A stretch of DNA of 64,000 bases. Origin: Nitrospina sp. LS_NOB. Its GTDB lineage: Bacteria > Nitrospinota > Nitrospinia > Nitrospinales > VA-1. Below the pieces are notes generated by a model that searched no databases, was not told where the DNA came from, and worked only from the letters and a program-made list of their open reading frames with translations. Positions within the stretch are counted from its first letter, which is position 1, and every line of letters starts with the position of its first letter. The stretch is from assembly GCA_001542995.1 (NCBI GenBank), contig LFLA01000022.1, positions 1 through 64,000 on the forward strand, read 5' to 3'. The position numbers were made by a program, and so were the translations under genes. This document shows positions 2,477-51,041 of this stretch, one piece after another.

Positions 2477-2512
2477 CGAAGGGAGGGGCTGGGGGAGGGT
2501 TGGATCAAAGTT
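2477..2512 (+). repeat. GGGAGGGTTGG-type dispersed repeat, solo copy
   Basis: The segment GAAGGGAGGGGCTGGGGG followed by AGGGTTGGATCAAAG matches the repeats at 18409, 19471 (inverted) and 19882. It directly abuts the right edge of the palindromic array and carries no gene. Confidence 0.8.
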
Positions 2513-17522: not shown

Positions 17523-18311
17523 CTACCTATAGACTATTTGCACCTTTCCCTTACGGTTGGCTTTGAAGGCCGCCAACATCGTGCCCTCCCCTAACGGGTT
17601 CAGTATCAAATCCAGAACTTTTAGCTGAGGAAAGTGCTGCGACTCAATCAAGGCAACAGCCCCCTGATCGGTGATATTATTTTGTCCCATATATAACGAT
17701 TCCAGTTTCTGAAACTTCTCGGAACTGGCAAAAGCCAACGCCCCCCCATCACCAATTTCGTTGCGGAACAAATTCAACGTCGTTAACTGTCCAAACACTG
17801 TGGCCGAGGCCAGCATTTCAGCACCCACCGGAGTGATCAAATTATCGTTCAGCATAAGGGTTTTCAGGTGGGTAAAATTGCCGGATGCCACCATCAGTTC
17901 GATGCTGTCATCACTGATTTCGTTTTTCCAGAGCTTTAAGGATTCCAATTGCCCCAGATAAGGCGACTCCGAAATAGCTTTTAGACCCAGATCGCCCAGC
18001 AGGTTGCCCCAGAGATCGAGATGTTTCAATCCAGCCAGATGCGGAGACTTCGCCAAGGCCTTCATACCTTGGGCTCTGATATTGTTTCCCTGCAGAAAAA
18101 GAGTGGTGATCCCTTTGAGGGATTCCATCGCCGCCAGTTGTTTCGCCCCCGATGTGCCGATATGCAATCCGGTGAGGTCGAGAGTCTTGCCATCGTGGCT
18201 GATGCGTTTGGCAACCAAAGCCGAAAGATCCGCGCCCCACCCCAAAGTGGGGGAGGACAGAAGGAAAACCAGCAGATAAGTGACAGAAAGTTTTGTTTGG
18301 AAGGCTGACAT
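17523..18311 (-). CDS. Secreted leucine-rich repeat (RNI-like) protein
   Basis: A 262-residue protein with a signal peptide (LLVFLLSSPTLGWGA) followed by seven or so ribonuclease-inhibitor-like repeats of about 25-30 residues. The consensus is LxxLxLxxNxIxxxGxxxLA, for example LTTLNLFRNEIGDGGALAFA and LESLYMGQNNITDQGAVAL. The repeats form a protein-interaction solenoid; the ligand is unknown. The start codon lies just after a 3' fragment of a glycosyltransferase gene, suggesting an ancestral glycosyltransferase-LRR pair. A second, non-secreted LRR protein of the same type is at 30063-30971. Confidence 0.85.
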   Translation of the reverse strand: MSAFQTKLSVTYLLVFLLSSPTLGWGADLSALVAKRISHDGKTLDLTGLHIGTSGAKQLAAMESLKGITTLFLQGNNIRAQGMKALAKSPHLAGLKHLDLWGNLLGDLGLKAISESPYLGQLESLKLWKNEISDDSIELMVASGNFTHLKTLMLNDNLITPVGAEMLASATVFGQLTTLNLFRNEIGDGGALAFASSEKFQKLESLYMGQNNITDQGAVALIESQHFPQLKVLDLILNPLGEGTMLAAFKANRKGKVQIVYR

Positions 18312-18360
18312 GAAGTCAGGTTAACAAATAGTTGAAGAGGGTGTAAATAATTTTTGCACC
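18311..18360 (-). repeat. Direct repeat of the glycosyltransferase 3' end (copy C)
   Basis: Fifty bases nearly identical to 19969-20018 and clearly related to 20607-20656, the true end of the glycosyltransferase gene. Read on the minus strand it encodes KTGAKIIYTLFNYLLT followed by stop, the C-terminus of that protein. It ends at the start codon of the LRR gene. Confidence 0.85.
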
Positions 18361-18408: not shown

Positions 18409-18450
18409 CCCTCCCTTCATAGGGAGGGACTGAGGGAGGGTTGGATTAAA
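18409..18450 (+). repeat. GGGAGGGTTGG-type dispersed repeat, solo copy
   Basis: Contains the palindromic core CCCTCCCTTCATAGGGAGGG followed by ACTGAGGGAGGGTTGGAT. Same orientation as the copies at 2477 and 19882, no gene attached. Confidence 0.8.
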
Positions 18451-19470: not shown

Positions 19471-19955
19471 CAATCCAACCCTCCCCCAGCCCCTCCCTAT
19501 GAAGGGAGGGGAGGCAAATGCTTTAAAATCTTTTCGCAAACTCCATCCAGGTTTTCATAAACATCCTGATTGGTAAATCGCAGAAACCGTATCCCCATAT
19601 CTTCGATGGTTTTCTGCCGGATTTCATCCGATTGGATCGCCGTTCCACTGAAATGAGAGTCTCCATCGATTTCAATCGCGAGTTTTGCCGATGGACAATA
19701 AAAATCCAGAATGTACCCGTCCACACTGTATTGTCGCCTAAATTTATGCCCATTGGCCTGTTTGTTTTTCAAAAACTGCCACAAAGCCACCTCCGCTGGC
19801 GGCATTTCTTTGCGCAGGGATTTTCTTTTGGTTTTTTCTGTGTTTCTGTTAAAAATTTTTACCATAGCTTTTTGTATTCCAGGCTCCCCTCCCTTCATAG
19901 GGACTCAAGCCCGATAGTCTGAGGGCTTGATGGCCAAGGGAGGGTTGGATCAAAG
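19471..19955. mobile_element. Candidate DUF559 element flanked by inverted dispersed repeats
   Basis: A 485-base unit in which a DUF559 endonuclease gene lies between an inverted pair of the GGGAGGGTTGG repeat. The left copy is at 19471-19515 (CCAACCCTCCC outermost) and the right copy at 19882-19955 (GGGAGGGTTGG outermost). The right copy carries an insertion with its own hairpin, TCAAGCCC/GGGCTTGA at 19905-19912 and 19923-19930. Solo copies of the same repeat occur at 2477 and 18409. The layout recalls REP elements mobilised by an associated RAYT enzyme, but movement is inference. Confidence 0.5.
19497..19865 (-). CDS. DUF559 endonuclease-domain protein
   Basis: A 122-residue Vsr-like/restriction-fold protein. 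Diagnostic features are RKEMPPAEVALWQFLKNKQA, KFRRQYSVDGYILDFYC and KLAIEIDGDSH, then IRFLRFTNQDVYENLDGV; the D, E and ExD residues match the nuclease core. The preferred start is MVKIFNR at 19865. The frame is open eleven codons further to ATGAAGGGAGGGG at 19898, which is part of the flanking repeat. The stop codon TAG at 19497-19499 is also supplied by the repeat core. Thus repeat sequence provides the stop and possibly an upstream start. The function of DUF559 proteins is unproven. Confidence 0.85.
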   Translation of the reverse strand: MVKIFNRNTEKTKRKSLRKEMPPAEVALWQFLKNKQANGHKFRRQYSVDGYILDFYCPSAKLAIEIDGDSHFSGTAIQSDEIRQKTIEDMGIRFLRFTNQDVYENLDGVCEKILKHLPPLPS

Positions 19956-19968
19956 TTAGCATCCAACC

Positions 19969-20018
19969 CGAAATCAGGTTAACAAATAGTTGAAGATGGT
20001 GTAAATAATTTTTGTACC
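19969..20018 (-). repeat. Direct repeat of the glycosyltransferase 3' end (copy B)
   Basis: Minus-strand reading gives SGTKIIYTIFNYLLT and stop, matching the C-terminus of the glycosyltransferase at 20612-21295. About 46 of 50 bases agree with copy C at 18311-18360. Confidence 0.85.
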
Positions 20019-20548: not shown

Positions 20549-20606
20549 AAAATATGATCCTCTTGAAATCTCATCATCAAAATTTTCTAGGGGGGTTATC
20601 CAAACC

Positions 20607-20656
20607 TGAAGTCAGGTTATTAAATACTTGAAGATAGTATAAATGATTTTTGTACC
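20607..20656 (-). repeat. Glycosyltransferase 3' end, copy A of the repeat
   Basis: The genuine last 45 bases of the glycosyltransferase gene plus a few bases beyond its stop. It matches copies B and C (19969-20018, 18311-18360) in the same orientation. Confidence 0.85.
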
Positions 20657-50159: not shown

Positions 50160-51041
50160 TCAGTGGTCACCTTTTTCCGATATAATTTCAGACGCGCACC
50201 GGAATCCGACATTCTCAAAAAAATCATTAGGGTTGGCCTCGGTGCGGGCGAACGCATAGCGGTAAGCAGGCAAAAAATAATGCCCGGCTTTCTGGAACCC
50301 GTTTCCCCTTAACACTTTCAGTTCTCTGCCAAACCTGGGGTCCGATTTGGAATTTCCCGGGTAAGGAAGGTACCAGTCCTGAGTCCATTCCATAACATTG
50401 CCGGACAAGCCATAAATTTTGTAAGGGCTAACATCTTCGGGCCAGGCGGTGACCGGTGCTGTTTTGCGGTCTCCATCAATGCCTAGATTCGCCTTGCCTT
50501 TAACAAACTCCTTCCCCCATGGATACGGCAGGCCGTTCGTACCTCGTGCTGACTTTTCCCATTGCGCTTCGGTAGGAAGCTGTTTTCCCGCCCACATGCA
50601 ATAGGACCAACCCTCCCACCATGTGACCTGGGTGACAGGGTGTGAAGCCTGCTCTTCAGGAAAAACTCCGTCCACCCAATGGGCAGGCCGATCGGTGAAC
50701 TGGGTGGCTTTTAGAAATCTTTGATACTCCTCATTGGTCACTTCATAACGGTCCATATAAAACGGACCGAGAAACAGTTTCCTCTCCGGGTGCTGATCGA
50801 GATAAAGAGGTTTAACCGCGCCAATTTTTTTATGTGTACCCTCCGTATCAACCTTGTTCGTTCCCATGATAAATTCACCGGAAGGAACCAGAACCATTTC
50901 TTTTTGATCCCTCTCGGAAACTTTTATCGGAGATAAAGGCCCCTCCTTGTTTTCACAGTCGCAGGACCCGCATCCCGTAACAAAAAACGAAAGCAATATA
51001 AAAACAGCTGGGGTATAGTAACCAAACCGAAAACACCTCAC
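50160..51041 (-). CDS. FGE/SUMF1-domain (formylglycine-generating enzyme-like) lipoprotein
   Basis: A 294-residue protein. Start chosen at GTG 51041, preceded by GAGAGG at suitable distance; upstream ATGs have no such site. A lipoprotein signal is visible (YYTPAVFILLSFFVTGC). The FGE-sulfatase domain has VLVPSGEFIMGTNK, FYMDRYEVTNEEYQRFL, PVTQVTWWEGWSYCMWAGKQ, LPTEAQWEKSARG and GLSGNVMEWTQDWY. The catalytic cysteine pair of true FGE is not evident, so a binding or structural role is likelier. It is head-to-head with the propeller gene, about 20 bases apart. Confidence 0.85.
   Translation of the reverse strand: MRCFRFGYYTPAVFILLSFFVTGCGSCDCENKEGPLSPIKVSERDQKEMVLVPSGEFIMGTNKVDTEGTHKKIGAVKPLYLDQHPERKLFLGPFYMDRYEVTNEEYQRFLKATQFTDRPAHWVDGVFPEEQASHPVTQVTWWEGWSYCMWAGKQLPTEAQWEKSARGTNGLPYPWGKEFVKGKANLGIDGDRKTAPVTAWPEDVSPYKIYGLSGNVMEWTQDWYLPYPGNSKSDPRFGRELKVLRGNGFQKAGHYFLPAYRYAFARTEANPNDFFENVGFRCASEIISEKGDH

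Follow-up and report, generated by a model that had tools for sequence, protein, structure and literature searches.

The window analysed in this study, the whole stretch of DNA under examination, comprises positions 1 to 64,000 of contig LFLA01000022.1 of Nitrospina sp. LS_NOB. A small DUF559 gene lies in it between two inverted copies of a short dispersed repeat, and further copies of the repeat stand alone. The features are as follows.

19497..19865, minus strand: DUF559 (PF04480) nuclease gene, Pfam domain match E=1.6e-29; 122 amino acids from the conserved MVKIFN; predicted Vsr/EDxHD fold
19475..19511, minus strand: 37-bp triplex repeat, intact, which overlaps the stop codon at the gene's 3' end; tail pointing outward
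19886..19948, plus strand: second triplex repeat, at the gene's 5' end and in opposite orientation to the 3' copy; purine arm and spacer interrupted
19475..19948, no strand: putative mobile unit (repeat, DUF559, inverted repeat), with close copies in G000:C10 (L003), G032, G035, G061 and G063
18409..18444, plus strand: solo repeat with complete hairpin and tail
2478..2503, plus strand: truncated solo repeat, purine arm and tail only

The earlier note on this DNA had described a DUF559 gene exactly flanked by an inverted repeat pair, with solo copies at 2477 and 18409. The domain match bears out the gene, and repeats do lie inverted on both of its sides. The 3' copy is whole and reads, in minus-strand order, CCCCTCCCT-TCAT-AGGGAGGGG-CTGG-GGGAGGGTTGG, but the 5' copy consists of CCCCTCCCTTCATAGGGA, a 34-bp stretch with its own hairpin (19904-19937) and then GGGAGGGTTGG. 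This 5' repeat is uninterrupted in the sister unit L003. The solo copy at 18409 has its complete hairpin and tail, whereas the one near 2477 is truncated and its pyrimidine arm is missing. The stop codon (TAG, 19497-19499) lies inside the repeat, as had been proposed, and is kept in six of the seven members of the window family that were compared (L002, L003, L048, L181, L182, L186 and L199). More widely, 55 of 122 DUF559 genes have their stop codon within a repeat unit. The suggestion that the repeat also supplies the start, at the ATG at 19898, did not stand. The window reading frame stays open up to this ATG, but L003 has GTG there followed by an in-frame TAG, and all seven members share an ATG outside the repeat, opening MVKIFN or MAKIFN (19865 in the window).

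The structure model of the protein (pLDDT 82) matched best 3hrl (NGO0050) and 3r3p (the homing endonuclease I-Bth0305I) among PDB entries, and Vsr more weakly. I-Bth0305I was matched both by sequence profile (E=1.5e-4) and by Foldseek (E=9e-5). In 59 aligned sequences, E36, D65, E76 and D91 are invariant and D78 and H82 nearly so; these are catalytic-type residues. As modelled, the DUF559 protein is a nuclease of EDxHD/Vsr-like fold, related to I-Bth0305I by profile and fold. The relatives differ from it in setting, I-Bth0305I being intron-encoded and Vsr a mismatch-repair enzyme. To our knowledge, neither is accompanied by flanking dispersed repeats, and we know of no standalone nuclease of this fold that transposes DNA.

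The window repeat, CCAACCCTCCCYCAGYCCCTCCCTRTGAAGGGAGGG, had 22 matches with at most three mismatches in the 2.65-Mb genome, and the reversed control had none. The edges of the aligned copies are sharp and common to the copies. The full repeat was taken as the search unit rather than its exact 11-mer GGGAGGGTTGG, which occurs at 2493, 18434, 19475 (minus strand) and 19938, and a fifth time at 50607 without a hairpin; with two mismatches the 11-mer was not over chance in number (27 observed, 21.5 expected). A search of Rfam returned no match. The genome holds three DUF559 loci, two with the window repeat and the third (L001, G000:C2:61316-61630) with a different repeat of the same build. L001 is probably a decaying unit, because its gene has an in-frame TAG. 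Two other repeats were met in the window. A second dispersed repeat, CCTGAAGTCAGGTTAACAAATAGTTGAAGATGGTGTAAATAATTTTTG, stands three times around the DUF559 unit (18308-18354, 19970-20012 and 20598-20650), partly in a stretch common to L002 and L003. A CGTC-type repeat, CGGTTTGTCATCCTTGAGGAGCC..., present about 100 times in this genome (G000), is clustered at 1560-2460 and connects with the truncated triplex copy (2478).

Across the loci, the repeat sequences differ but the architecture is constant: a 5' pyrimidine arm, a loop, a purine arm, a short loop and a 3' purine tail. The tail mirrors the purine arm, such that an A of the arm faces A or T and a G faces G. With the arm-tail alignment picked on exact mirror matches only, A-to-T not being allowed, arm G faced G in 97.6% of 1,284 cells, and arm A (387 cells) faced A in 61% and T in 34%, or either of the two in 96%. 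Tails fitted their own arms at 0.713, compared with 0.636 (sd 0.007) for permuted arms. A plain direct copy of the arm was tried as a description of the tail and rejected; the mirror reading was better in 73 cases, worse in 16 and equal in 84. A/A, A/T and G/G are the pairings permitted as triads in an antiparallel purine-motif triplex. Judged by their sequence, the repeats follow the rule for a purine-motif intrastrand DNA triplex and belong to the BoxC/PIT/triplex motifs, a nature that the earlier note had not seen. The window sequence could also form a G-quadruplex.

Knowledge of BoxC/PIT elements goes back to the 1990s in E. coli and was later extended to more than 260 genomes, while their origin and spread were left open (PMC4666352). 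The isolated strand of the E. coli motif forms a stable triplex in vitro, whereas in vivo footprinting gave no support for stable triplexes (Holder et al. 2015, PMC4666352). Our repeats share with BoxC/PIT/TM_ECO the architecture and the triplex rule, and are likewise dispersed, intergenic, and solo or in inverted pairs (PMC4666352). The difference is the DUF559 gene that stands between two motifs in many phyla, whereas the main survey reported no mobility gene near them (PMC4666352). Types beyond the E. coli TM consensus also occur here, namely the window CCCTCCCT type and the CCCCCTTT type. The DUF559 family includes the gene ycjD of E. coli K-12; its last codons fall in a degraded motif and a canonical TM lies about 200 bp downstream. 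A fuller motif directly follows ycjD in E. coli AGR6137.

Family matches were found in 38 of 77 genomes of the phylum. With YcjD as query, DUF559 proved rare on plasmids (43 of 72,556 records) and in phages (3 of 50,697 records). We read 32 loci from the phylum and 80 from contigs of wider genomes, picked by protein similarity alone; the wider sample came from a narrower alignment, which biases it toward the DGGQH clade. Most of these loci had repeats built in this one way. A strict detector, applied to 107 DUF559 loci of many phyla, found a repeat upstream at 69, downstream at 83 and on both sides at 61. Within 100 bp of the domain match there were 74 units upstream and 89 downstream, while at distances above 400 bp each 100-bp bin contained about 1-2, so that density adjoining the gene is about 50 times the distant level. 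In the same phylum, genes of another small nuclease family, GIY-YIG, had such a repeat on both sides at 0 of 28 loci. The distance profile and this control led us to reject the idea that the genes lie beside abundant repeats by chance. Inverted flanks matched each other (local score of at least 18) in 60% of pairs from one locus, 9% of pairs from different loci and 0% of shuffled pairs. The tail points toward the gene at most loci (61 against 10 upstream, 76 against 11 downstream). The minority with outward tails includes the window family and the Synechocystis B12 locus. Such repeats also lie near DUF559 in Neisseria gonorrhoeae, Picosynechococcus PCC 7002, Pseudanabaena, Sphingomonas, Klebsiella and Synechocystis, with less regular placement in N. 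gonorrhoeae and Klebsiella. These comparisons show that, in many phyla, the repeats are part of what defines a DUF559 unit. The flanked gene of the window is a real observation, and broader than the earlier note held.

The association has exceptions. The earlier note had proposed testing whether every DUF559 gene has a flanking pair. Some genes lack detectable repeats, one or both being absent at L054, L121 and L126, and E. coli ycjD has none upstream. The converse also occurs, since genome G047 (97% complete) has 34 copies and no DUF559 gene, which indicates that the repeats can outlive or do without it. Both had been named beforehand as observations against a tie between gene and repeat, and both are encountered in part. 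They fit a loss of autonomous copies, yet they weaken a strict dependence. Two structural variants were also observed. L192 (G022:C46:4944-5923), close to the end of its contig, is a tandem of two DUF559 units that are identical and spaced 656 bp apart. In Legionella and betaproteobacterial units (L066, L067, L082, L121 and L126), the hairpin loop or the spacer is enlarged by long inserts, for example GGATAACCAGCGACT...CGAATGGCTAGTTGTTTC, which are possibly nested repeats like the 34-bp stretch of the window.

These data bear on two other explanations. One is that the hairpins are terminators or attenuators of the DUF559 transcript. They do lie near the start codon and often overlap the stop; but solo copies are common away from DUF559, PIT elements had neither promoter nor terminator activity in earlier work cited in PMC4666352, and a terminator needs no purine tail that obeys a DNA-triplex rule. 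We regard this explanation as very improbable. The other is that host processes or another enzyme spread the repeats; DUF559 would serve the host, for instance in Vsr-type T:G mismatch repair next to solitary cytosine methyltransferases, and would be carried along between two repeats through chance and selection. The DUF559 protein VsrA of Caulobacter, linked to DNA damage in cells without the methyltransferase ScmA, has been proposed as a mismatch-repair endonuclease (PMC12907096), and the genomes with repeats but no DUF559 agree with such a passenger role. It accounts poorly for a flank enrichment that extends over diverse phyla and is not seen for GIY-YIG in the same genomes. DUF559 also has a patchy distribution in the genus and several copies in some genomes, which is not the pattern of a host repair gene, and the class of repeat tracks the protein clade. 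We therefore doubt that the nuclease is a mere passenger with a repair function, though it comes next after the main rival discussed below.

The control genes had neighbours of their own. By eye, about 12 of 30 GIY-YIG loci (L136-L165) bear CGTC-type REPs on both sides (GTCACCCTGAGCCTGTCGAAGGGTG, CGTCATTGCGAG...GCAATCCAG, GTCATTCTGAGCGAAGCGAAGAATCTC). Since a dedicated transposase was reported to be absent for CGTC-type REPs (PMC3733652), GIY-YIG may be their partner.

On a tree of 135 proteins, repeats with A next to loop 1 and G-type repeats were separated by 4 changes, compared with 22 under shuffled labels, and 0 of 500 shuffles were as low, a contrast inflated by near copies. Genomes with two DUF559 clades (G026, G020 and G010) have at each gene the repeat class of its own clade. 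Linkage of gene and repeat in one unit can by itself explain this match of types. Window-type repeats occur in 12 of the 77 phylum genomes, including 5 of 5 with a window-type gene. Two other repeat types were found in 31 of 36 genomes with DUF559 and in 17 of 41 without (Fisher p=5.7e-5, phylogeny not corrected).

The all-against-all comparison showed many locus pairs that align solely from repeat to repeat, at up to 97% identity. L038 and L190, from genomes of different genera, are 96.8% identical over 438 bp with unrelated flanks; L034/L036 (92.7%) and L189/L191 (86.7%) likewise align repeat to repeat. Copies within one genome were also found in G000 and G026, L002/L003 being 89% identical over 590 bp, including some shared flank, and L026/L178 81%. 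The alignments show the unit occurring as a repeat-bounded block at unrelated sites. Besides complete units there are solo repeats, inverted pairs without a gene, and units with an internal deletion, the last including L240 (G036), whose middle is deleted. At the nifU locus of the genus, four genomes have the unit (three of them decayed), one has a degraded repeat and most others have no repeat. The earlier note had proposed comparing empty sites between strains, and no junction could be cleanly read in E. coli or the genus. None of the loci examined revealed a target-site duplication, or a recent insertion clean enough for both junctions to be read. At the genus empty sites ychF, queC and nifU, either the differences exceed the unit (two loci) or divergence is too great for exact junctions. 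Strains without ycjD were considered as clean E. coli empty sites and rejected, as they carry an efflux operon there. A cyanobacterial PglX-like methyltransferase gene shows three states at approximately one position: no repeats in Planktothrix (L275), an inverted pair in Pseudanabaena (L274) and a pair with DUF559 in Synechocystis B12 (L273). In L274, two inverted triplex-repeat pairs (295-405 and 800-900) lie in frame within the methyltransferase coding sequence and add repeat-encoded peptide.

This locus is compatible with, though no proof of, a different history, which we consider the main rival. A free-standing DUF559 homing endonuclease would cut inverted pairs that already exist, such as those of E. 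coli and Pseudanabaena, and the gap would be filled with a copy of the gene by repair from a pair that has it; the repeats would be target sites and homology arms, spread by something else. Gene-less pairs do exist, five of them in E. coli MG1655 (PMC4666352), and the Pseudanabaena pair sits at about the position that holds pair and gene in Synechocystis B12. The nearest solved structures are, moreover, a homing endonuclease and a Vsr-like protein. Against homing into ready-made pairs, the flanking pair is the only window-type copy set in G032 and G063, solo repeats outnumber close pairs in the genome of the window, and orthologous sites of the genus without the gene mostly have no repeat at all. 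It also leaves the spread of the repeats unexplained. We judge it unlikely, yet worth keeping in view.

We believe that a minimal mobile element is the probable, though far from certain, identity of the unit: about 430-500 bp, with a DUF559 nuclease as its sole gene and two inverted, potentially triplex-forming repeats as its ends. Several lines of evidence point to it: the flank enrichment relative to the GIY-YIG control, the matching inverted flanks, the triplex rule, the block mobility, the tracking of clades, the co-occurrence of window-type repeats and genes, the three-state methyltransferase locus and the homing-endonuclease fold. In such an element, ends turned single-stranded during replication or repair would fold into hairpins or triplexes. 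The DUF559 protein would bind the folded ends and cut or nick them, and host repair would then copy the unit to, or join it at, a different site. Repeats standing alone and pairs without the gene would be non-autonomous derivatives moved in trans, as proposed for REPs by RAYTs. The step from nuclease to movement is one that we infer. What speaks against a self-mobilising unit is the lack of resolved insertion junctions, the repeats of G047, the genes without repeats, the sufficiency of linkage alone for the type match and a fold that, as far as we know, has no transposing member.

The earlier note had drawn a parallel with REP/RAYT systems and suggested that DUF559 may mobilise the repeat or act on it. 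As an analogy this is well supported, because one repeat architecture recurs in many phyla, movement of the unit is blockwise and repeat type tracks protein clade. In both systems, the nuclease gene stands within an inverted pair of short palindromes that have an unpaired extension, solo and paired copies occur elsewhere, and repeat type and protein type go together (PMC3733652, PMC8266576). The unit works like REP/RAYT without being a member of it, since enzyme fold and repeat tag differ. RAYTs are HUH tyrosine transposases whose repeats bear a GTAG tag, whereas DUF559 is Vsr/EDxHD-like and its repeats have a mirror-repeat tail; the window repeat consensus has no GTAG tag, and the window gene is a DUF559 gene, not one for an HUH tyrosine transposase. 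Like MITEs and their parent insertion sequences, the autonomous unit has shorter non-autonomous derivatives with common ends, as in L240. It differs from them in having no DDE or other known transposase and no target-site duplication seen, and in that its ends are hairpins of the triplex type.

No prior link between DUF559 and these repeats was found in the open-access literature; subscription journals were not covered. We tentatively propose, with a little less than even confidence, a new class of mobile element, in which a nuclease of Vsr/EDxHD fold recognises intramolecular-triplex ends and BoxC/PIT elements are its non-autonomous offspring, with a parallel class of GIY-YIG and CGTC-type REPs. 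DUF559 and triplex repeats may together explain the spread of orphan BoxC/PIT repeats, including those of E. coli. A Pfam family of 'unknown function' is now a named candidate, which can be tested in E. coli K-12 (ycjD) and with the protein of solved structure NGO0050 (3hrl). If true, a widespread class of bacterial repeats would be explained, DUF559 would be given a role, and the unit would stand as a mobile element with ends that may be recognised in the form of DNA triplexes.
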